NCBI RefSeq assembly: GCF_027568395.1
Contig: NZ_JANKZL010000001.1
Coordinates: 186,001-250,000, forward strand
DNA length: 64,000 nt
Origin: Aminobacter sp. HY435
GTDB lineage: Bacteria; Pseudomonadota; Alphaproteobacteria; Rhizobiales; Rhizobiaceae
Direction of reading: 5' to 3'
Positions within the stretch are counted from its first letter, which is position 1; each line of letters starts with the position of its first letter. Below, one piece after another: positions 49,144 to 64,000 of the stretch. The notes under the pieces were generated by a model. That model was not told the origin of the DNA and did not search any database. It saw only the letters and a list, made by a program, of their open reading frames with translations. A program made the translations under genes and the position numbers.

Positions 49144-50430
49144 TCACTGAGTCGCCGGCGGCGTTGGCGCTTGCTGGCGCAGCCGCTCTATCACCTTGGC
49201 CAGCTGTGCGGGGTAGTCGGGCGTGAATGTCCAGTAGTGCGCGCCAGTTCCCGCCTTGCCGGCTGCCAGCCCGCGTTCTCCGGCCGGCAGATGGTGCAGG
49301 AGAGTTATCAGCACATCGCTGCTCACCCAGGGATCGTCGTACCAGAAGGTGTGCGAGCGATTGGAGAGGCCGGGAATGTTTTCCGGGCGCACCCTGAGAA
49401 GCTCGGTGCCATAGGTCTTGCTCGCCCCGAGCAGCCAGTTGGTCGCTTCCGGGTCGAGTTCACTCATGTCCGGACGCCCTGCCCGGGACGCGCGGTTGAT
49501 GACCTGGGAGAGCCGGAGCGCACTGTCGCTCATGTTGACCGCGACCGTCACCCGCTCGGCCTTGTCGGCATAGTCGCGCATGTCGTCGACGAAGCTGCGG
49601 AAATCGGCGTCGGGTGCTGCGTGGTAGACCTCGCCCAGCCGCGGCGCTGCTGCGCCCGGCCGCGCGGCGTCGCGACCGACCATGGCCATCGCGTCGCTGC
49701 CCACAGTCGCGCCGGCGCTATAGGTGAAGACATCGACCTTCGCGGCATCGGTGTTCTGCGACAGCAGCTCGACCAGCTTGGCAAGGTGCGGGGCAGCACC
49801 GAATGCCGTTACCATATCCCGGGAATAGCGCAGGAAGTTTTCCGCCGTGGGCCAGACGAACAGCACCACGACGGAGTTACGGCCAGTGAAGTGATGCAGC
49901 TGGGCTGCCTGGCCGGCGGCGCGCTCGACCGTCGTGTTGGCGCCATGCACGTAGACGATGATGTCCTTGTCGGCGCTGTTCCTGAGCGCTTCGTTGATCT
50001 CGGCGAACCAGGCCTTCGCCTCGCCCGAAAGATCGCCTTCGCTCTCGATCGTCGCCTGCTCGTTCATGCGCTGAAGGTGCAGGAATGGGCGGCGGTCGTC
50101 GCTCATGCCGGTCGACCAGGCATATATCTTGTCCCAGGTCGTGCCCTCCTCGCCGATCCGGACAGTCGCAACACCGGCCTGCATGTCGCGGCCTGGCACC
50201 ACCGCATAGAGCCGGTTGTCGCGGGGACCGACCGGAAGACGATTGGTGGCGAAAAACAGCGATATCTCCGGATCGGCGGCTTTTTCGGGGTTGTCCGAAA
50301 AGGCGCTGCTCTGTTGGTCGACGAAGACGAACGGCGCCGGCATCAGACGCATCGGCGGTTGGTAGAACGACATGGCGATGGTGCCGACAGCGACCACAAG
50401 GGCAAAGATTCCAACGTAGCGAAGCATCAT
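49144..50430 (-). CDS. Alpha/beta hydrolase of the DUF900 family
   Basis: A 428-residue protein anchored by an N-terminal helix (MMLRYVGIFALVVAVGTIAM) with a periplasmic DUF900 domain. It has VYVHGANTTVERAAGQAAQL for the oxyanion region, VFTYSAGATVGSDAMAMVG with the nucleophile serine (the usual first glycine replaced by tyrosine), and a C-terminal HTFWYDDPWVSSDVLI. It is possibly an esterase; no substrate is known. Another alpha/beta hydrolase gene lies upstream on the same strand. Confidence 0.82.
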   Translation of the reverse strand: MMLRYVGIFALVVAVGTIAMSFYQPPMRLMPAPFVFVDQQSSAFSDNPEKAADPEISLFFATNRLPVGPRDNRLYAVVPGRDMQAGVATVRIGEEGTTWDKIYAWSTGMSDDRRPFLHLQRMNEQATIESEGDLSGEAKAWFAEINEALRNSADKDIIVYVHGANTTVERAAGQAAQLHHFTGRNSVVVLFVWPTAENFLRYSRDMVTAFGAAPHLAKLVELLSQNTDAAKVDVFTYSAGATVGSDAMAMVGRDAARPGAAAPRLGEVYHAAPDADFRSFVDDMRDYADKAERVTVAVNMSDSALRLSQVINRASRAGRPDMSELDPEATNWLLGASKTYGTELLRVRPENIPGLSNRSHTFWYDDPWVSSDVLITLLHHLPAGERGLAAGKAGTGAHYWTFTPDYPAQLAKVIERLRQQAPTPPATQ

Positions 50431-50516
50431 TTCTTCCCTGCCCCTCAGGGCGTATGTCTAGCTGAACGGGATGGCACCAACAGCCTTCCCAACCTCGATG
50501 CGACCGGCCAGGTGGC

Positions 50517-51245
50517 TCAGTTCCCCAAGCCGCGGCGCAAAAGCTCACGCCAGGTCAACTTGTGATCGAACTGTCCGGTGCGCAGGAAACTCAGCGTCTG
50601 GGCGATGACAAGCGGGTTGTTCATCATGAAGGTGTGTGTGGTCGGCAGCACGATATGGTCCTTCATGCCTTCCAGCTTGGTGCTTTCGACCGAGACCTTG
50701 CCGTCATTCGGCCCCTTGAACATGCCCGACAGCAGCGGGTTGATCGACCGGTCGCCTGCGATGATGCCCAATTCGAAATCTGCTGCGCCGAGCTGGCTGG
50801 GGACGCTGTTCGGGCCAGTTCCGAGCTGCACCCCGGCAGGTCCGTTCACCATCTCGAAGATCGCCAGGTCACCGAACACGTCCACCACTTCCGAGCCATG
50901 GTTCGGCGGCCCCAGCATGACGACCCGGCCCATGTTCTTCGGCCTGTTGTCCATCAACCATGCCCGCACCAGGATGCCGCCCATGGAGTGGGTGACGAAA
51001 TGCAGCTTGCTGGCCTCACCGCATTTGGCGACGGACCCGTCGACATAAGCCATGAGCTTTTCGATCGGCGCGTCGGTTGACGGATAGGACTCGTTGACGA
51101 CCTTGAAGTCGAACACCCTCAACGTCTCTTCCATCAGCATCAGCGACGCATCGGTACGCGACAATCCGTGGAGCATGACGACGCATTCCTGCGCCAGGGC
51201 AACGGGGGACAAAAGCAGAAAAATCAAAAATGAAAAAATACGCAT
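50517..51245 (-). CDS. Secreted alpha/beta hydrolase (lipase/acyltransferase-like)
   Basis: A roughly 242-residue exported hydrolase. I use the ATG at 51245, which gives a clean signal peptide ([20 protein letters not shown]); a TTG at 51251 is less likely. The body has [33 protein letters not shown] with the nucleophile serine, and [12 protein letters not shown] for the catalytic histidine. This resembles PGAP1/EstA-type lipases. Two cysteines (QECVV and VAKCGE) could form a disulfide. It lies 86 bases before the DUF900 gene. Confidence 0.82.
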
Positions 51246-51594
51246 GACCAAGACTAATCCGAAAATTCGGCAAGTCTCAAGGTGTCGGCAACCAGCGGTT
51301 TAAGAAAGAAAATTGGGGGCCGGTCGGCGCTGGCAGCGGTACGAGGAGGCCACTAATTGCCAGAGCCGGCCGGCCGACCCCACGGACCCAGGAGATGCGG
51401 CGGACCTGAGCATCATGGGGTATCAAACAGGGCTACCCGGCCAATGCTCCTCGCGCCGATGCCCGTCCTTTTGCTCGACCTCACAGTCGCGCAAGATCAC
51501 TTGAAAATCAACACTTTCTTAACCACGGCTGGCCGTTGGCCATAGTTAAGGTAAACAATCAAGGTTAGCGCGAGAGACCGATTGAATTCAGGTC
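51246..51594. other. Longest gene-free stretch, between the lipase and pleD genes
   Basis: These 349 bases separate two minus-strand genes. They hold a long imperfect hairpin at 51318-51375 and, nearer pleD, AT-rich sequence with repeated GTTAAGG/GGTTAGC-like motifs. I see no coding region, tRNA or clear terminator for pleD. Confidence 0.5.
51318..51375. other. Long imperfect hairpin in the lipase-pleD gap
   Basis: GGCCGGTCGGC (51318-51328) pairs with GCCGGCCGGCC (51365-51375) including one G-T pair. After one mismatch CTGGCA (51330-51335) pairs with TGCCAG (51358-51363), with a 22-base loop. There are 17 pairs in all. It could be a leader element for the lipase gene or a small structured RNA. 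Confidence 0.5.
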
Positions 51595-52968
51595 TCAAGC
51601 CGCACGCGCGACCACCCGGTTGCGGCCACGCGTCTTGGCATCGTAAAGCGCAAGGTCGGCGCGCTTGAGCAGCGCCGCCACCGAGTCTTCCTGTGGCCAG
51701 ACAGACGACACCCCCACACTGACGGTGACAGCGACACTCTTTGCTCCGCCACCTATGGCAAACGGCGCCCTGGCGACCTCCGCCCGGACCCGCTCTGCCA
51801 CCATCTCGGCCAGCGCCGCATCGGTATCCGGCATCACAATGATGAATTCCTCGCCGCCAAAACGGCAAGCAAGATCAATGCCTCGAACACTTTTCCTCAA
51901 TCTTCGCGCAAATTCGCGCAGAACCTCGTCGCCGCCATCGTGACCGTAGGTGTCGTTGACGCTCTTGAAGCGGTCGAGATCAGTAATCATCAAGGACAGT
52001 GGACGTTTCCGCGCCATCGCCCGATCGAACAGGCGGGGCAGATGCCCGTCGAGGTAGCGCCTGTTGTGCAGCCCTGTCAGCCCGTCGGTGACGGCCATTT
52101 CGATGGACTGGCTGACGCTCTGCCGCAATTCGTCATTGTAGCGCTTGCGGCGCACCTGGGTGCGCAGCCGGGCAATCAGTTCCTGTCGGTCGAGCGGCCG
52201 TACGAGATAGTCATTAATGCCGAGCTCGAGCCCACGAATGATACGGTTGTCTTCCTCCTTGCCAACCAAAAGGATGATCGGAAGCGATCGGGTACGGTCG
52301 AGCGAGCGCAGCTGCGAGCAAAGCCTGAGCGGGTCGAAATCGGCGAAGCCGTTCGACACGATCACGCATTCGAACCCGCCCTCGGCGGCATGGAACAGGC
52401 CTGACTGCGGGTCGGCGGCGACTTGAACATCGGCCGCGCCGTCGAGCAATGCGCAGATGTGAGCAACCGAGGAAGAGCGTTCGTCGATCAGCAGAACCCT
52501 TGGCATTGTGCCTTCCGGCAGGTCGCCTTGCGCCAGCGGTTCCTCGATCCCGATGTTCTGGGTCGTCAGGGCGCGCAGGCGCAACTCGTCCGTCAGGACC
52601 TTGAGCCGGACCAGGCTTTTGACCCGCGTCACCAGTTGCAGGTCGTTCACCGGCTTGGTCAGGAAATCGTCGGCGCCGACGTCAAGGCCGCGGACACGGT
52701 CGGCGACATGATCGAGCGCTGTCACCATCACGACGGGAATATGGGCGGTCGCCGGATCGGCCTTCAGGCGGCGGCAGACCTCGAATCCGTCCATGCCGGG
52801 CATCATCACGTCGAGCAGCACGACATCGACCTGGCCCGCAGCGCAGGCCTCCAGCGCATCGGGACCGTTGAAAGCGGAAAGCACTTCGAAATATTCGGCC
52901 AGAAGCCGGACTTCGAGCAGTCTTACGTTCGCCGGGATGTCGTCCACGACGAGGATGCGAGCTGTCAT
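51595..52968 (-). CDS. pleD: Response regulator / diguanylate cyclase PleD
   Basis: Cell-cycle regulator that makes cyclic di-GMP at the differentiating pole. The 457-residue product has a first receiver with phospho-acceptor Asp53 (VVLLDVMMPGMDGFE) and a second receiver that lacks an aspartate at that site (VIVSNGFAD), matching PleD's adaptor receiver. A GGDEF domain follows with GGEEF at 371-375 and an RGID inhibitory site five residues before it. It lies 31 bases after divK, the Caulobacter order. Confidence 0.95.
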   Translation of the reverse strand: MTARILVVDDIPANVRLLEVRLLAEYFEVLSAFNGPDALEACAAGQVDVVLLDVMMPGMDGFEVCRRLKADPATAHIPVVMVTALDHVADRVRGLDVGADDFLTKPVNDLQLVTRVKSLVRLKVLTDELRLRALTTQNIGIEEPLAQGDLPEGTMPRVLLIDERSSSVAHICALLDGAADVQVAADPQSGLFHAAEGGFECVIVSNGFADFDPLRLCSQLRSLDRTRSLPIILLVGKEEDNRIIRGLELGINDYLVRPLDRQELIARLRTQVRRKRYNDELRQSVSQSIEMAVTDGLTGLHNRRYLDGHLPRLFDRAMARKRPLSLMITDLDRFKSVNDTYGHDGGDEVLREFARRLRKSVRGIDLACRFGGEEFIIVMPDTDAALAEMVAERVRAEVARAPFAIGGGAKSVAVTVSVGVSSVWPQEDSVAALLKRADLALYDAKTRGRNRVVARAA

Positions 52969-52999: not shown

Positions 53000-53371
53000 T
53001 CAGGCGTCGCCGAGATAGGATTTGATTGTCTCGATGAAGCGCGGCACCGAGATCGGCTTGGAAATGTAGGCTTCGCAGCCTCCCTGCCGGATCCGCTCCT
53101 CGTCGCCCTTCATGGCGAATGCGGTGACGGCAATGACCGGGATGGTGTGGAGATCGTCGTCCTCCTTCAGCCACTTGGTCACTTCCAGACCCGAAACCTC
53201 GGGCAGTTGGATATCCATCAAGATAAGGTCAGGCCGGTGCTGGCGCGCGAGATCAAGCGCTTCCAGGCCGTTGCGTGTGCGCACGGTCTCGTAGCCGCTT
53301 GCTTCGATGAGGTCGCGAAAGAGCTTCATGTTGAGCTCGTTGTCCTCGACGATCATCACTTTCTTAGCCAT
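53000..53371 (-). CDS. divK: Single-domain response regulator DivK
   Basis: Essential polar regulator that, when phosphorylated, acts through DivL and CckA to lower CtrA activity and stimulates PleC/DivJ and PleD. The 123-residue product is a stand-alone receiver: acidic pocket at [14 protein letters not shown], phospho-acceptor Asp53 in [13 protein letters not shown], and the lysine in AYISKPISV. The order divK-pleD supports this identity over other single receivers. Confidence 0.95.
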
Positions 53372-56451: not shown

Positions 56452-58115
<1,664 letters not shown>

Positions 58116-58176: not shown

Positions 58177-58497
58177 CTAGCCCTGTCGCTCTGGAACCGT
58201 AACGACCAGCCCGTCGAGCTCGTCCCTGACCTTGATCTGGCACGACAGCCGCGAATTCGGCCGCACATCATAGGCGAAGTCGAGCATGTCTTCTTCCATC
58301 GCCTCGGGTTCGCCGACCAGCGCGGTCCATGCTTCATCGACATAGACATGGCAGGTCGCGCAAGCGCAGGCGCCGCCGCACTCCGCCTCGATGCCGGGCA
58401 CTGCATTGCGAATGGCATTTTCCATCACGGTCGAACCGTTTTCGGCCTCGACGTCAAAACGTGTCCCATCGTGGGAAATATAGCTCAGCTTGGTCAT
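58177..58497 (-). CDS. Adrenodoxin-type 2Fe-2S ferredoxin
   Basis: Small electron carrier. The 106-residue product has cluster cysteines Cys40, Cys46, Cys49 and Cys86 in the C-x5-C-x2-C ... C arrangement ([16 protein letters not shown] and RLSCQIK). The acidic helix [17 protein letters not shown] is the partner-docking surface of this group. It is transcribed with the ferredoxin reductase gene just downstream and probably feeds monooxygenase or Fe-S assembly partners encoded elsewhere. Confidence 0.94.
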
Positions 58498-58595: not shown

Positions 58596-58970
58596 CTATC
58601 GATTGATGGCGGAAACGAAGTCCCTGACCTCGTCGATGAGCATGGTGAGGCGCTTGATGAGCGTCTCGTCGTCCGGCTGCAATTCGATCCTGGCGACGCA
58701 ATCGGCGACATGGAAAGCGCCGACACCGCGCGCCGACCCCTTCAGGGCATGTGCCAGTCTCAGGCGCTCCTGGATGTCGGCAACGGCAATTTCGTCGCGA
58801 ACCGCGAGAGCCTGGTGGACGAACATATCGAGCACCTCGCGTTCGACGTCGCGATCGTCCATAGTCTGTCTGGCGAGGTGTTCGAGGTCGATCGGGCGCC
58901 CGTGGGTAAGCCCTGCGGATTCGCCTCCCGGCATGCCAAAGGCCACGGAATCCGTTTCGCGCGCCACCAT
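58596..58970 (-). CDS. Hpt (histidine phosphotransfer) domain protein
   Basis: A 124-residue single-domain phosphotransfer protein. The phosphorylated histidine is His74 in RLAHALKGSARGVGAFHVAD, the Hpt H-x-x-K-G motif, in a four-helix bundle. There is no kinase or receiver attached, so it must shuttle phosphate between separate proteins, as phosphorelay parts do in alphaproteobacterial cell-cycle control. The partner is unknown. It diverges from the giant coiled-coil gene. Confidence 0.85.
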   Translation of the reverse strand: MVARETDSVAFGMPGGESAGLTHGRPIDLEHLARQTMDDRDVEREVLDMFVHQALAVRDEIAVADIQERLRLAHALKGSARGVGAFHVADCVARIELQPDDETLIKRLTMLIDEVRDFVSAINR

Positions 58971-58991
58971 AGAAGCCCTACCCTGCCACTC

Positions 58992-59015
58992 GCCCTAGGG
59001 TTGGTAAGCTAGGGC
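58992..59015. promoter_or_regulatory. Inverted repeat upstream of the Hpt gene
   Basis: GCCCTAG and CTAGGGC, 7-base arms with 10 bases between, lie 22 bases before the Hpt start. It could be an operator or a leader hairpin. Confidence 0.3.
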
Positions 59016-59088
59016 TTTCATGTGGATAACCCGTTAACCCGACAACCCCAGCAATCGCATGGCCTCGCGGCCAATAATCACTCCAATG

Positions 59089-59104
59089 TTAACCTTATAT
59101 TTAA
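59089..59104. promoter_or_regulatory. CtrA-like TTAA pair upstream of the giant coiled-coil gene
   Basis: TTAACC (59089-59094) and TTAA (59101-59104) are separated by 8 bases between the TTAA units; the CtrA consensus has 7. Another TTAACCC lies near 59034. The match is imperfect and is noted because both flanking genes look cell-cycle related. Confidence 0.25.
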
Positions 59105-59249
59105 ACTTTTACGTATCGCGGCGAATGCATGTTTTCTTTACCCGATTGTGTCATTACGATACGGGCGGTCCATATTGAGCCTCGGACGCGGTCAAAAATA
59201 GGACAAAAAGTCCAGCAATTCCGCGTCGTTAGTACAGGGTAGCGAAGGC

Positions 59250-62200
59250 ATGGCGAAGAAATCCACTCCGAGCAAGAACCTCGATCTCGACGTAGCCAAG
59301 GAGCTCGAGGATGCACTCGACCTCGACTTGAGCGGCGGCGACGGCGGCCTCGACATGGCGGCCTCGATGGACGATCTGGAATTGCAGATTTCCCAGGCCG
59401 CCGAAGAGCTGGCGCGCGAAAGCAACAAACAGAAGCCGCAGACTCAAAAGCCGGCGCCTGCTCCTGTTGCCGCGAAGCCTGCCCGCGCTCCGGAGCCCCC
59501 GGCCGAGCTTCGCCCGGTCGAAACACGGCCCCCGCTGCAGCCTGCCGGCTTCACCCCTGCCAACGACGACCGGCAGAAGGATTACAAGTCGCTGCTGCAC
59601 GGTCTGAACCGGCGTGCGTCGAGCACCATCTACTGGATGGTCGGCCTCGTTTCCGTGGCCTGGGTCGCCGGCGCCGTGGCGCTGGCCGACCGCATCGTCA
59701 CGCCCAGTATCTGGACCATCCGGTCGCTTGACGACGCCCTCGCCCGCCCCGGCCTGCTGATGCTGCTGGTCGCGACCATCGTTCCGATCGCCTTGTTCTG
59801 GGCCTTTGCTGCGATGATCCGTCGCGCCCAGGAAATGCGCATTGCCGCCCAGTCGATGACTGAAGTGGCCTTCCGCCTCGCCGAACCGGAAAACATGGCG
59901 CAGGATCGCGTCATGATGGTCGGCCAGGCCGTTCGCCGTGAAGTCGCCGCAATGGGCGAAGGCATCGAGCGCACCTTGGCCCGCGCGGTCGAGCTCGAAA
60001 CGCTGGTACACACCGAAGTCAACCAGATCGAACGTTCCTACTCCGAAAACGCCGCCCGCATCCGTTCGCTCGTCGACGGTCTCGGCAGCGAGCGCGAAGC
60101 CGTCGTCTCGCACGCCGAACGCGTCCGCGCCTCGATTGCCGGCGCACACGAGACGCTGCGCGACGAGCTCGGCTCGGCCAGCGACATCATCCGCGACAGC
60201 ATCCTGAATGCCTCGACTAAGCTGTCGATGACGATCACCAACTCCGGCGACACGCTCATCGACCGCATAAACGAAGGCGGCATGGGCCTGTTCGAGGCCA
60301 TCGACAACCGCATGGACTCGATCAGCGACCGCCTGTCGACTTCGGGCGAGGCCTTCGCCAGCCTGCTCGATACCCGCATCGCCAAGCTGACGCAGAGCAC
60401 CGACGAGGTGACGCGCTCGCTCACCGACATGCTTGACGACCGCACTTCGGGCATGGTCTCGCTGCTCGGCGGCGCCGCCAAGACGATCAACTCCGAATTC
60501 GAAACCAGCCTGCACGGCATCGAACGCACCTTGGCCGAACGCGGCCAGGCGCTGATCAGTGAGTTCCAGACCCGCGCCGAGGCGCTGGACACCGGCACCG
60601 CCAAGCTCAACGCCGCTCTCGAAGCGCGCGCCCGCCAGATCAACGAAACGCTCGTCGAGCGCGCTCGCGAGATCGCCACGACCTTCGTCCAGGGCCGCGA
60701 TTCGCTGTCTGCGATGATCGACCAGGGCAAGACCCAGATCGGCACCGACCTCGCCGACATCATCACCTCGACCTCGACGATGCTCGAAGCACGCGCCAGC
60801 GATTTCGCCGGCCGCATGGAAGCCGCCCGTCATCAGGTTTCAAACGCCTTCGACGGCGACATCCAGCGCCTCTCGGACGCCCGCCAGGGCATCGAGCAGG
60901 CTGTCGACGAGCACACCCGCAAACTCTCCGAGGCGCGCGACCGCATGGCCGCCGCCCTCAAGGACGATCTCAGCAAGTTTGCCGAAGGCCGTGCCAGCAT
61001 CGAAGCCGCCGTCGGCTTCCAGGTTCAGAAGCTGGCCGAAGGCCGCAGCCTCATCACGCGCGCTCTCGACGACGACATGCGCAAGCTGGAGCAGTCGCGC
61101 CAGTCGATCGACGACACGCTGTCGAGCCAGTTCCGCCAGCTGGCCCAGGGTCGCGAACAGCTTGCCCAGGCGCTCGTCGAAGACTCCGAGAAACTCGTCC
61201 AGGCCCGTACCAACATTGACGAAATGGTCGCTGGTCACGTCGGCAAGCTGGCCGAGGGCCGCTCGATCCTGACGCGTGCTCTGGAGGCGGATCTCAACAA
61301 GCTCGCCGACAGCCGCGGCAGCATCGACGGCCTCGTCGCCGGCCAGGTCGAAAAGATCGCGGAAGGCCGCGCCATCCTCGCCAAGGCGCTGGAAACCGAC
61401 CTCGACGGCATCAAGGCGCTGGTCGATGGTCACTCCTCGAAGATCGCTGCCGACCGCGCCGGCCTGTCCCAGGCGCTCGAAACCGATCTGGGCGGCATCC
61501 AGGCCCTGATTGAGGGCCATTCGTCGAAGATCGCGACCGATCGCACCAACCTGTCCAACAATCTGCAGACCGACATCGCCGCCGTTCACGGCCTCATCGA
61601 GGACCACGCAGGCAAGCTCGCCGATGAGCGCGTCCTGCTGTCGAGGACCCTGGAATCCGACCTTGCCAAGCTGGCCGAGAGCCGCGCCGGCATCGACGGC
61701 CTCGTCGCCGGTCAGGTCGAGAAGCTGGCCGAAGGCCGCGACATCCTCAAGCGTGCGCTCGAAGCCGACCTGAATGCGATCCAGAGCACGATCTCGTCGC
61801 AGTCGGACAAACTCGCAGCCGACCGCGCGACCCTGTCGCAGGCGCTCGCTGCCGACGTCGACAATGTCAGCGGCATGGTCGCCTCGCATGCCGAGCGCCT
61901 CGCCGCCGAACGCGGAGCGCTCTCCAAGGCCCTTGAGGACGACATTGCCAAGCTGGCCGAAAGCCGCTCCGGCATCGACGGCCTCGTTGCCGGCCAGGTC
62001 GAGAAGCTGGCCGAAGGCCGTGATATCCTCAAGCGCGCGCTGGAAGCCGACCTCAACGCCATCCACGGCACGATCGCGTCGCAGTCGGAGAAGCTCGCCG
62101 AAGACCGCGCGTCGCTTACCCGCTCGCTCGAAGCCGACCTCGAGAACGTCCGCGGTTTGGTGTCGAGCCATGCCGACCGGCTCGTCGCCGAACGCAGCAC

Positions 62201-64000
62201 GCTGTCGCGGGCCCTCGAAGACGATCTCGCCAAGCTGGCCGAAAGCCGCTCCGGCATCGACGGCCTCGTCGCCGGCCAGGTCGAGAAGCTGGCCGAGGGC
62301 CGCGATATCCTGCGCCGCGCGCTCGAAGCTGACCTCGCCAAGATCGACGGCATGATGCTCGGCCAGGTCGACAAGCTGGCCGCTGGCCGCGACGCCCTGA
62401 CCAGGGCGCTCGAAGACGATCTGGCCCTGCTCAACAGCAGCCGCTCCAGCATCGACGACCTCGTCGCCGGTCATGTCGGCAAGCTCGCCGAGGGCCGCAA
62501 CATTCTGTCCCAGGCACTTGACACGGACCTCGCCAAGCTCGGCGACACCCGCCGCGAGATCGACCTGGCCATCTCCGGCCATATCGACCAGATCGCCGCC
62601 CGCCGCGTCGACATCTCCGACGCGATCGCCGGTGACATCGAAAAGATCGAGGAAAGCTTCCGTCGCCAGACCGGCGTCATCGAAGAGCGCACTGGAACCA
62701 TGGAGCGTGCGCTTTCGCTGGGCGTCGACAATGTCCGTGGCGTCCTCGAAAAGAGCGCGGTGTTCGTCGCCGGCGCCCTGCGCGAAAAGGTCATGGAAGT
62801 GACCGCCGCGCTCAACGAGGAAGCCGGCCGCGCCTTCACCGACGCCGACCGCGTCATCGCCGAGCGCGCCGAGCAGACCTCCAACGCCCTGCTCGCCCGT
62901 GCCGAAGACATCAGCCGTGCCTTTGAAGAGGCAGACCGCCGTCTTGCCGTCCGTGCCGAGGAAACCTCCAGTTCGCTGCTCGCACGCGCTGAAGAGACCG
63001 CCGAAACGCTTTCGGCCAAGGCAGGCGAAATCTCCCGTACCTTCGACGCGGCCGACCGCACGCTCATCTCCCGCGCCATCGAGACGGCGGAATCGCTGTC
63101 GGCCCGTGCCGGCGACATCCTGCGCAACTTCGACAATGCCGACGAACGACTCGGCCTGCGCATCGGCGAATCCGCCGACGCGCTTGCCGCCCGCGCTGCC
63201 GAACTCGGCCGCATCTTCGACACCGCCGACGAGAAGCTGGCTACCCGCATCTCCGAAGGCGCGGATTCGCTCGGCAATCGCGCCGGCGAACTGAGCCGCA
63301 TCTTCGATGCCGCGGACGAGCGCATCGCCGCCCGCGTCGCAGACAGCTCGGCAACGCTCGGCAGCCGTGCCGGCGAAATCGTCCGCAACTTCGAGGAAGC
63401 CGACGAACGGCTCGCCGCACGCGCCACCCAGACCGCCGACAGCCTCGCAGGCCGCGCCGCCGAACTCGGGCGTGTCTTCGAAGAAGCCGACGGCAGGATC
63501 GCTGCACGCGTCGACCAGACATCGCAGTCGTTGCTTGGCCAGGCTTCCGAAATCGGCCAGGCATTCGACGAGGCCGGCCGCCAGCTCGCCGCGCGCATTG
63601 CCGACAGCACGTCGGGTATCGGCGAACACGCCGCCCAGATCGCCAACGCGTTCACCGAGACCGAACAGCGCGTGGTCGCTCGCGCCCACCGCACCTCTGC
63701 CGATCTCGAGGCCCGCGCCAAGTCGATCGAGGAAACGCTGGCCAATGTCGACGAGCGCCTCGCTGCCGGCGCAGAGGGCGTCGCAGCACGCATCGGTGAG
63801 CACCTGTCGAGCGCCGAGAACCGCCTCGCCTACGGTGCGGAATCGATGGGCCAGAAGCTCCACGAGCAGGTCGCCCAGGCGGAATCCCAGCTCGTCGCCC
63901 GCGCCAACGTGATCGCCGAAACCTTTACCGCTGTTGGCCAGCACATCGGCCAGAGCACCAACGAGGCGGCCCGCGCCATTGGCGCCAACACGCGTGAACT
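59250..64000 (+). CDS. Giant coiled-coil membrane protein, growth-pole-ring (GPR)-like (3' end beyond window)
   Basis: An open frame of at least 1583 codons running off the right edge. The N-terminus is acidic (LDLDVAKELEDALDLDLSGG) with a Pro-rich linker. Two membrane helices follow (about 127-147 IYWMVGLVSVAWVAGAVALA and 168-189), and then an almost wholly helical, charged region. Residues 539-1094 are 17 repeats of 36 or 29 residues; 1259-1519 are nine 29-residue repeats. This layout matches the Agrobacterium GPR protein, an apolipoprotein-like ring at the growing pole. That identity is from memory and moderately sure. It begins 280 bases from the divergent Hpt gene. Confidence 0.9.
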   Translation, partial: MAKKSTPSKNLDLDVAKELEDALDLDLSGGDGGLDMAASMDDLELQISQAAEELARESNKQKPQTQKPAPAPVAAKPARAPEPPAELRPVETRPPLQPAGFTPANDDRQKDYKSLLHGLNRRASSTIYWMVGLVSVAWVAGAVALADRIVTPSIWTIRSLDDALARPGLLMLLVATIVPIALFWAFAAMIRRAQEMRIAAQSMTEVAFRLAEPENMAQDRVMMVGQAVRREVAAMGEGIERTLARAVELETLVHTEVNQIERSYSENAARIRSLVDGLGSEREAVVSHAERVRASIAGAHETLRDELGSASDIIRDSILNASTKLSMTITNSGDTLIDRINEGGMGLFEAIDNRMDSISDRLSTSGEAFASLLDTRIAKLTQSTDEVTRSLTDMLDDRTSGMVSLLGGAAKTINSEFETSLHGIERTLAERGQALISEFQTRAEALDTGTAKLNAALEARARQINETLVERAREIATTFVQGRDSLSAMIDQGKTQIGTDLADIITSTSTMLEARASDFAGRMEAARHQVSNAFDGDIQRLSDARQGIEQAVDEHTRKLSEARDRMAAALKDDLSKFAEGRASIEAAVGFQVQKLAEGRSLITRALDDDMRKLEQSRQSIDDTLSSQFRQLAQGREQLAQALVEDSEKLVQARTNIDEMVAGHVGKLAEGRSILTRALEADLNKLADSRGSIDGLVAGQVEKIAEGRAILAKALETDLDGIKALVDGHSSKIAADRAGLSQALETDLGGIQALIEGHSSKIATDRTNLSNNLQTDIAAVHGLIEDHAGKLADERVLLSRTLESDLAKLAESRAGIDGLVAGQVEKLAEGRDILKRALEADLNAIQSTISSQSDKLAADRATLSQALAADVDNVSGMVASHAERLAAERGALSKALEDDIAKLAESRSGIDGLVAGQVEKLAEGRDILKRALEADLNAIHGTIASQSEKLAEDRASLTRSLEADLENVRGLVSSHADRLVAERSTLSRALEDDLAKLAESRSGIDGLVAGQVEKLAEGRDILRRALEADLAKIDGMMLGQVDKLAAGRDALTRALEDDLALLNSSRSSIDDLVAGHVGKLAEGRNILSQALDTDLAKLGDTRREIDLAISGHIDQIAARRVDISDAIAGDIEKIEESFRRQTGVIEERTGTMERALSLGVDNVRGVLEKSAVFVAGALREKVMEVTAALNEEAGRAFTDADRVIAERAEQTSNALLARAEDISRAFEEADRRLAVRAEETSSSLLARAEETAETLSAKAGEISRTFDAADRTLISRAIETAESLSARAGDILRNFDNADERLGLRIGESADALAARAAELGRIFDTADEKLATRISEGADSLGNRAGELSRIFDAADERIAARVADSSATLGSRAGEIVRNFEEADERLAARATQTADSLAGRAAELGRVFEEADGRIAARVDQTSQSLLGQASEIGQAFDEAGRQLAARIADSTSGIGEHAAQIANAFTETEQRVVARAHRTSADLEARAKSIEETLANVDERLAAGAEGVAARIGEHLSSAENRLAYGAESMGQKLHEQVAQAESQLVARANVIAETFTAVGQHIGQSTNEAARAIGANTRE
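60864..62531 (+). repeat. First repeat array of the giant protein: 17 units of 36 or 29 residues
   Basis: Reading in frame, 17 consecutive units end in a motif like RALEADL. Nine are 36 residues and eight are 29; the longer ones carry a 7-residue insert such as AKLAESR. The order is 36x5, 29x3, 36, 29x2, 36, 29x2, 36, 29, 36. Three near-identical copies recur exactly 282 bases apart (36+29+29 residues) from 61665, 61947 and 62229, showing recent tandem duplication. Confidence 0.9.
63024..63806 (+). repeat. Second repeat array: nine 29-residue units
   Basis: Nine uninterrupted 87-base units begin at 63024, 63111, 63198 and so on. Each follows the plan G-E-I-x-R-x-F-x-x-A-D-E-R-L-x-x-R followed by about 12 residues ending in A-x-R-A. 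A related unit stands alone at 62904-62990. The last unit (63720) is the most diverged. Confidence 0.88.

Follow-up and report, generated by a model that had tools for sequence, protein, structure and literature searches.

The locus

The window, which is the whole stretch of 64,000 nucleotides of Aminobacter sp. HY435 DNA that was analysed (G000:C11:186001-250000), ends within a very long open reading frame on the forward strand (Table 1). The frame is open for 1583 codons (59250..63998) and continues past the window edge. An earlier note on this DNA had described a frame of more than 1583 codons, and this is borne out in the same contig, where the complete gene comprises 2119 codons (G000:C11:245250-251609, stop at 251609), 1609 bases of which fall beyond the window. 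The translated sequence displays an acidic N-terminus, a membrane hairpin, an arm of amphipathic repeats and, after a Pro-rich linker, a conserved domain of ∼110 residues at the C-terminus. Both the acidic start and the pair of membrane helices proposed in that note were found: residues 11-60 contain 15 D/E versus 3 K/R, and hydropathy peaks at residues 127 and ∼169. The arm has no further membrane segment, as the maximal 19-residue Kyte-Doolittle mean across residues 261-1980 is 1.14. Two N-terminal membrane helices are thus predicted, with the bulk of the protein in the cytoplasm, a topology that we infer from hydropathy.

A divergently oriented gene for an Hpt-domain protein adjoins the long gene, as had been claimed (Pfam PF01627, 38.4 bits; cut-off, 24.6), followed by a ferredoxin and an oxidoreductase gene. 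Four open reading frames scanned downstream of the long gene (L004 7725-12071) have no Pfam match; these are mechanical frames and perhaps not all are genes. Elsewhere in the window, at 49144-51251, two adjacent minus-strand genes display alpha/beta hydrolase matches (DUF900, 92 bits, and a weaker lipase-like match).

Table 1. Features of the window around the long open reading frame
Feature	Position	Strand	Evidence
Pyridine-nucleotide oxidoreductase (ferredoxin-reductase type), syntenic	57063..58091	-	Pfam Pyr_redox_2; in 17/20 order regions
2Fe-2S ferredoxin, syntenic	58177..58497	-	Pfam Fer2; in 18/20 order regions
Hpt-domain protein, divergent neighbour; motif AHALKG intact	58596..58970	-	PF01627
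Predicted phosphoacceptor His codon (residue 74, H74, of the Hpt protein)	58749..58751	-	alignment
Divergent Hpt-GPR intergenic region	58971..59249	.	sequence scan
TTAACC half-site	59034..59039	+	motif scan
TTAACC half-site	59089..59094	+	motif scan
Probable GPR/RgsE ortholog, codons 1-1583 of 2119	59250..64000	+	ORF and full-length comparison
Acidic N-terminal segment, residues 11-60	59280..59429	+	residue composition
Predicted membrane helix 1, ∼residues 126-151	59625..59702	+	hydropathy; residues 110-420 44% identical to Agrobacterium GPR
Predicted membrane helix 2, ∼residues 162-191	59733..59822	+	hydropathy
87-bp (29-codon) tandem array within the helical arm	61353..61552	+	DNA repeat analysis (L004:3354-3553)
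282-bp (94-codon) tandem array, 2.8 copies, within the helical arm	61637..62419	+	DNA repeat analysis (L004:3638-4420)
Second 87-bp array region	63159..63394	+	DNA repeat analysis (L004:5160-5395)

Similarity to GPR and RgsE

The resemblance to the growth-pole ring protein GPR of Agrobacterium, proposed from the layout of the protein, was examined by full-length comparison. As the strain C58 gene Atu1348 is absent from the compared loci, the GPR of A. arsenijevicii (L131) served as its stand-in, and SMc00190 (L035) represented RgsE of Sinorhizobium meliloti. The window protein has a collinear blastp match to GPR of 663 bits (residues 62-2119) and one to RgsE of 674 bits (residues 1-2118), with an overall identity of ∼30% in each case. 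Of 101 decoys, 99 gave any match, the best of 100 block-shuffled GPR sequences reaching 37.7 bits and the reversed GPR 31.6 bits; the similarity therefore exceeds that of coiled-coil composition.

Identity is unevenly distributed along the protein. It is highest in the last 125 residues (72% to GPR, 75% to RgsE), intermediate in the membrane region, residues 110-420 (44% and 43%), and lowest in the arm (25% to both). GPR of L131 and RgsE are 43% identical to each other (published value, 42%; PMC8262873), which is above the 30% of the window protein and counts against reading the latter as their ortholog.

Read from the common start MANNKIS, three Agrobacterium loci (L130, L131 and L132) encode 2120, 2115 and 2121 aa, and the S. 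meliloti locus reads 2089 aa; the published sizes are 2115 aa for GPR (PMC8262873) and 2089 aa for RgsE (PMC7327166). Two database labels are worth checking. The S. meliloti RgsE gene (CP090106.1 6151-12420) carries the annotation 'kinesin', and CP090106.1 itself, with 3.7 Mb chromosome-sized, is labelled plasmid pSymB. G669, a genome of genus g356 in the family of the host, has a GPR C-terminus that matches a Rhizobium rhizogenes record at 100% identity; identity to Agrobacterium records is 99% (A. tumefaciens and A. arsenijevicii), 98% (A. pusense) and 94% (A. rubi). A search for 16S within the host genome yielded none.

The helical arm

A long repetitive helical region had been described, with a likeness to coiled coils. 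The repeats are there, as arrays in the DNA (87 and 282 bp) and as a 29-residue periodicity in the protein, but a canonical heptad coiled coil is not. Windowed spectra of large hydrophobic residues, with 20 periods tested, peak at 3.63 for the window protein, compared with 3.667 for both GPR and RgsE; power at the heptad period of 3.5 is 1.55, 0.74 and 0.68, respectively. Because the peaks lie at 3.63-3.667 and not at 3.5, the hydrophobic seam appears to be of the hendecad or apolipoprotein type, and 'coiled coil' is a loose term for it. Self-identity is maximal at a lag of 29 residues in the window protein and of 22 in GPR and RgsE; by this sequence measure, the dominant repeat unit of the arm differs between genera.

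The apolipoprotein model PF01442 matches nine stretches of the window protein (E 3.7e-24) with 85.9 bits, just under the curated cut-off of 90. GPR and RgsE score 172.8 and 257.8 bits, a gap that also counts against orthology.

The C-terminal domain as a family marker

The C-terminal domain provides a marker of the family that avoids the repeats. With the last 133 residues of the window protein as query, an even sample of 150 genomes from the order Rhizobiales yielded the domain in 142, mostly at the end of open reading frames of 850-2940 codons; shorter frames exist. A profile (A1) was built from 24 C-termini, 23 from the order and one from Sphingomonas. Within the class, it matches 127 of 337 genomes; four of these belong to the order, and the other 123 (of 333 outside it) are spread over 60 families. 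Among 18,714 open reading frames, reversed decoys gave no match at E≤0.01.

One region was taken for each of 58 outside families. All 58 contain the domain, which in 57 lies at most 21 residues from the end of the reading frame. By hydropathy, two N-terminal hydrophobic segments are present in 48, one in 8 and none in 2; these last two (L091 and L115) are both at contig edges. A profile built from 54 outside rows alone recovers the C-termini of the window protein, RgsE and GPR at E 5e-40 to 6e-38, and the same profile finds nothing significant in the arms of the three proteins. This comparison of relatives suggests that the family extends well past the bacteria that grow from their ends.

The domain has no name in Pfam, and neither Pfam nor NCBIfam gives a match to it above cut-off; Pfam searches with the 24 C-termini yield no consistent family (the best, DUF3067, in 3/24 at E 0.001), and the domain profile, run against PDB sequences, returned nothing credible, with a best E of 0.13.

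One outside homolog, from Sphingomonas parapaucimobilis (L037, NZ_CP155749.1 8036-10360), is 774 aa long; it has two hydrophobic stretches in its N-terminal part and a helical arm, and its C-terminal domain is of the GPR type. The homolog adjoins an Hpt gene lacking the phosphoacceptor His, on an 880-kb replicon that also has nuo genes.

MreB and the length of the protein

No MreB match (PF06723 at E≤1e-20) was detected in the host genome, which is 99.99% complete, and this is as expected of a polar grower. According to a published suggestion, Rgs proteins and MreB exclude each other (PMC7327166). Judged by the domain marker, this exclusion does not hold for the RgsE family, because MreB is present in 18 of 142 domain-bearing genomes of the order and in 116 of 123 outside it. 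The latter figure comes from genome handles compared by eye, with seven unlisted genomes deduced from gaps in the numbering. The seven outside genomes that lack MreB are G192, G222, G247, G314, G319, G336 and G363; four of these are <90% complete. Within the order, 19/150 genomes have MreB, and 18 of the 19 carry the GPR domain. The remaining one, G128, is 88% complete.

MreB appears to be related to the length of the protein in the order. When the longest GPR frame per family is compared, broken frames included, all 10 families with MreB stay below 1500 codons, and 26 of 40 families without it reach at least 1500. The medians are 1105.5 and 1840 codons (Mann-Whitney p 0.004, uncorrected for phylogeny). 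The link is not strict, since 12 of the 78 rows used from outside the order exceed 1500 codons.

Gene neighbourhood and the Hpt protein

Gene order around the window gene, compared as had been proposed, agrees with that of S. meliloti in the sequence fol genes, DUF922, ferredoxin, Hpt and GPR. The S. meliloti locus runs folK-folB-folP, DUF922 on the opposite strand, ferredoxin and Hpt, then rgsE divergently. FolP and FolB near the window gene were identified by tblastn (to L035 and others).

A nearby divK-pleD pair had also been reported. A single-receiver gene (53000-53371) and a REC-REC-GGDEF gene (51595-52968), which by their architecture we take to be DivK-like and PleD-like, do lie ∼6-8 kb upstream of the GPR gene, but this neighbourhood is not general among GPR loci. 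In a set of nine loci, a divK match is found in the two of the same genus (L126 and L127) and in none of the stretches examined of L035, L036, L123-L125, L128 and L129.

The Hpt gene was found in 122 of 150 genomes of the order by a single-sequence search. Where both matches are on one contig (104 genomes), it lies beside the GPR gene in 102: in 98 it is divergent and within 3 kb, and in four, all of family f34, it is on the same strand, upstream within ∼3.1 kb. The other two have a truncated GPR frame with the Hpt gene 3-7 kb away. The two genes are on different contigs in 12 genomes, one of which (G131) has a weak match on another large contig. Twenty-six genomes of the order have GPR without a detected Hpt gene, and six the reverse. 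Among 80 named Rhizobiaceae loci, the gene is divergently upstream in 78, the remaining two being cut by contig ends.

Adjacency of the Hpt gene as a special signal is weakened by its neighbours. In 20 regions of the order picked for diversity, one of which (L044) has little upstream sequence, ferredoxin is kept in 18 and the oxidoreductase in 17, and Hpt in 12 (tblastn) or 13 (HMM). The whole block of neighbours is conserved, with losses in these 20 regions more frequent for Hpt than for ferredoxin. Of the 80 Rhizobiaceae loci, tblastn detected ferredoxin in 78 and Hpt in 75; by the same method FolP was present in 73 and the oxidoreductase in a single locus. Of the 58 regions outside the order, six of which have <500 bases upstream, seven have Hpt beside the GPR homolog (HMM; five by tblastn) and two have ferredoxin.

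The phosphoacceptor His is intact in the window but missing, by alignment, in 15 of 78 Rhizobiaceae Hpt proteins, where nine different residues replace it. A minimum of two changes accounts for the losses, one in a Ciceribacter/Peteryoungia group of 14 and one in Pseudorhizobium tarimense, on a quick tree of GPR ends with 31 of 75 inner branches open. Median dN/dS is 0.263 for His-less Hpt genes (53 pairs) and 0.27 for His-bearing ones (441 pairs among the first 40 of the 63 rows), with only pairs of dS 0.1-1.5 used; by these ratios the gene is under purifying selection despite the loss of the His. A wider Hpt alignment has the His kept in 16/17, and the proteins of Sphingomonas L037 and L061 are without it.

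Two small genomes of the same family, L129 (G488, 1.1 Mb) and L128 (G487, 2.0 Mb), have GPR frames of 1718 and 1925 codons, and no Hpt gene was found in the stretches examined of either. Genus g356 of this family, to which G669 belongs, was chosen for comparison on account of a telomere-resolvase family found in three of its genomes; over the cut-off, g345 and g354 have one genome each with it.

Among the papers listed in a literature search, none dealt with the Hpt neighbour of GPR or with the widely distributed C-terminal domain. One paper that covers both GPR and Hpt discusses Hpt, in the portion available, for another kinase (PMC9022086).

Putative CtrA-type sites between Hpt and GPR

CtrA sites have the form TTAA-N7-TTAA, and TTAACCAT is an ungapped variant (PMC6180460). 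CtrA-like sites had been noted at this locus. Two TTAACC half-sites are indeed present, but the window's Hpt-GPR intergenic region has neither TTAACCAT nor a full TTAA-N7-TTAA box.

In 79 Hpt-GPR intergenic regions, i.e., the window and 78 from Rhizobiaceae, whose relatedness inflates all site counts, TTAACC occurs in 79 (mean 15.3 and maximum 25 in 50 mononucleotide shuffles), TTAACCAT in 76, and the full TTAA-N7-TTAAC in 18 (shuffle mean 0.1, maximum 1). TTAACC density is 2.66 per kb in the intergenic regions versus 0.05 elsewhere in the loci. All of the 25 relatives listed have a site on the Hpt coding strand, 18 of them at 100-155 bases from the Hpt start, the start codons being approximate. 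In Rhizobiaceae, the promoter region shared by Hpt and GPR carries putative CtrA-type TTAACCAT sites.

Beyond this set, TTAACC is found in 10 of 16 Hpt-bearing regions (shuffle mean 3.5, maximum 8), comprising three from Rhizobiaceae (L035, L036 and L057) and 7 of 12 from other families of the order; the Hpt region of Sphingomonas L037 has none. Outside the order there is no enrichment, with TTAACC in 6 of 53 upstream segments versus a shuffle mean of 8.9. The main text of a study of CtrA in S. meliloti contains no 'Hpt', 'kinesin' or TTAA (PMC4433202).

GANTC is a CcrM-type site. It is scarce in the same 79 intergenic regions, where 24 contain it against a shuffle mean of 66.7.

Interpretation

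The growth-pole ring protein is known as GPR in Agrobacterium and as RgsE in Sinorhizobium, and the window gene very probably encodes its ortholog in the host. Taken by itself, the gene is an unremarkable ortholog within a known family. It allows a firm annotation in the host genome, namely of a polar-growth organiser in a relative of rhizobia that has no detectable MreB.

A protein of this family might instead do another job in the host, e.g., as a general scaffold of the envelope or of polarity. The same architecture coexists with MreB in the 116 outside genomes and in 18 of the order, and relatives with the same ends in MreB-bearing genomes mean that architecture alone is no proof of a role at the growth pole; a different role for distant homologs has also been suggested (Krol et al., 2020, PMC7327166). 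This is nevertheless improbable for a host that shares its family with Agrobacterium, lacks an MreB match and encodes the long form of the protein. Far less credible still is a general coiled-coil or SMC/kinesin-like protein that is GPR-like by helical composition only, a reading to which the low identity of the arm (25%) and the 'kinesin' label of the S. meliloti gene would lend themselves; shuffled and reversed GPR sequences do not exceed 37.7 bits against 663, and the non-repetitive ends, 44% and 72% identical, together with the conserved gene order, rule it out. A long-tailed membrane protein like ZorA of an anti-phage system can be dismissed as next to impossible, as the weak NCBIfam matches (16.4 bits for the window protein, 49.7 for GPR of L131 and 69.8 for RgsE, with cut-offs of 250 and 190) have their best stretches within the arm repeats, and the GPR-type ends settle the identity.

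For the GPR/RgsE ortholog, published GPR and RgsE mutants suggest how the protein might act. The two-helix hairpin would anchor it in the inner membrane at the new pole, where RgsE of Brucella abortus has been reported (PMC9938171), and the arms would assemble as a cytoplasmic ring. The C-terminal region, functionally required in Agrobacterium GPR (PMC8262873), would be needed to direct peptidoglycan and membrane synthesis at the pole. We propose further that a hydrophobic seam with a period of 3.63-3.67 may produce a nearly straight or right-handed, hendecad-type rod. The Hpt-fold neighbour is a candidate partner, whose role in at least some lineages may not need phosphorylation.

What we infer anew from the comparison of sequences is a family marker, the occurrence of the family alongside MreB, a conserved Hpt neighbour that has lost its His more than once and, in Rhizobiaceae, a putative CtrA-type site in the promoter region. 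Two handles on a possible connection between growth pole and cell cycle are the Hpt gene in divergent orientation and the conserved TTAACCAT site. A broader scenario can be put forward tentatively, as one that falls somewhat short of being likely. GPR might not be a novelty of bacteria with polar growth but the Rhizobiales version, increased in size, of an ancient scaffold family of Alphaproteobacteria with a membrane hairpin, a helical arm that varies in length and a conserved C-terminal domain. That family would normally occur with MreB and would have been adapted as a growth-pole organiser in those lineages from which MreB was lost. In Rhizobiales GPR would have a divergent Hpt-fold partner, under CtrA-type control in Rhizobiaceae, and in several lineages this partner would be a pseudo-Hpt that binds without phosphotransfer.

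Comparison with known systems

The window protein shares with GPR of Agrobacterium tumefaciens (Atu1348; PMC8262873) its size (2119 versus 2115 aa), the two N-terminal membrane helices and the repetitive helical arm. Compared through L131, it also has in common a Pro-rich stretch, the C-terminal domain with 72% identity and the divergent Hpt neighbour. It differs in the arm, which is only 25% identical and has a repeat of 29 residues (period 3.63) as opposed to 22 (period 3.667) in GPR.

With RgsE (SMc00190; PMC7327166), compared through L035, there is a full-length match at 30% identity, rising to 75% in the C-terminal domain. The RgsE seam differs in having a period of 3.667 and its strongest lag at 22, with lag 29 nearly equal. 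The loci differ between DUF922 and ferredoxin, where the window has the oxidoreductase and S. meliloti only a short hypothetical open reading frame.

The apolipoprotein A1/A4/E family (PF01442) has in common with the window protein amphipathic helices with a periodicity of the 11/22-residue type. The window protein differs in scoring below the cut-off, in being membrane-anchored as judged by its sequence, and in its C-terminal domain, which has no PF01442 match and is the part most conserved with GPR and RgsE.
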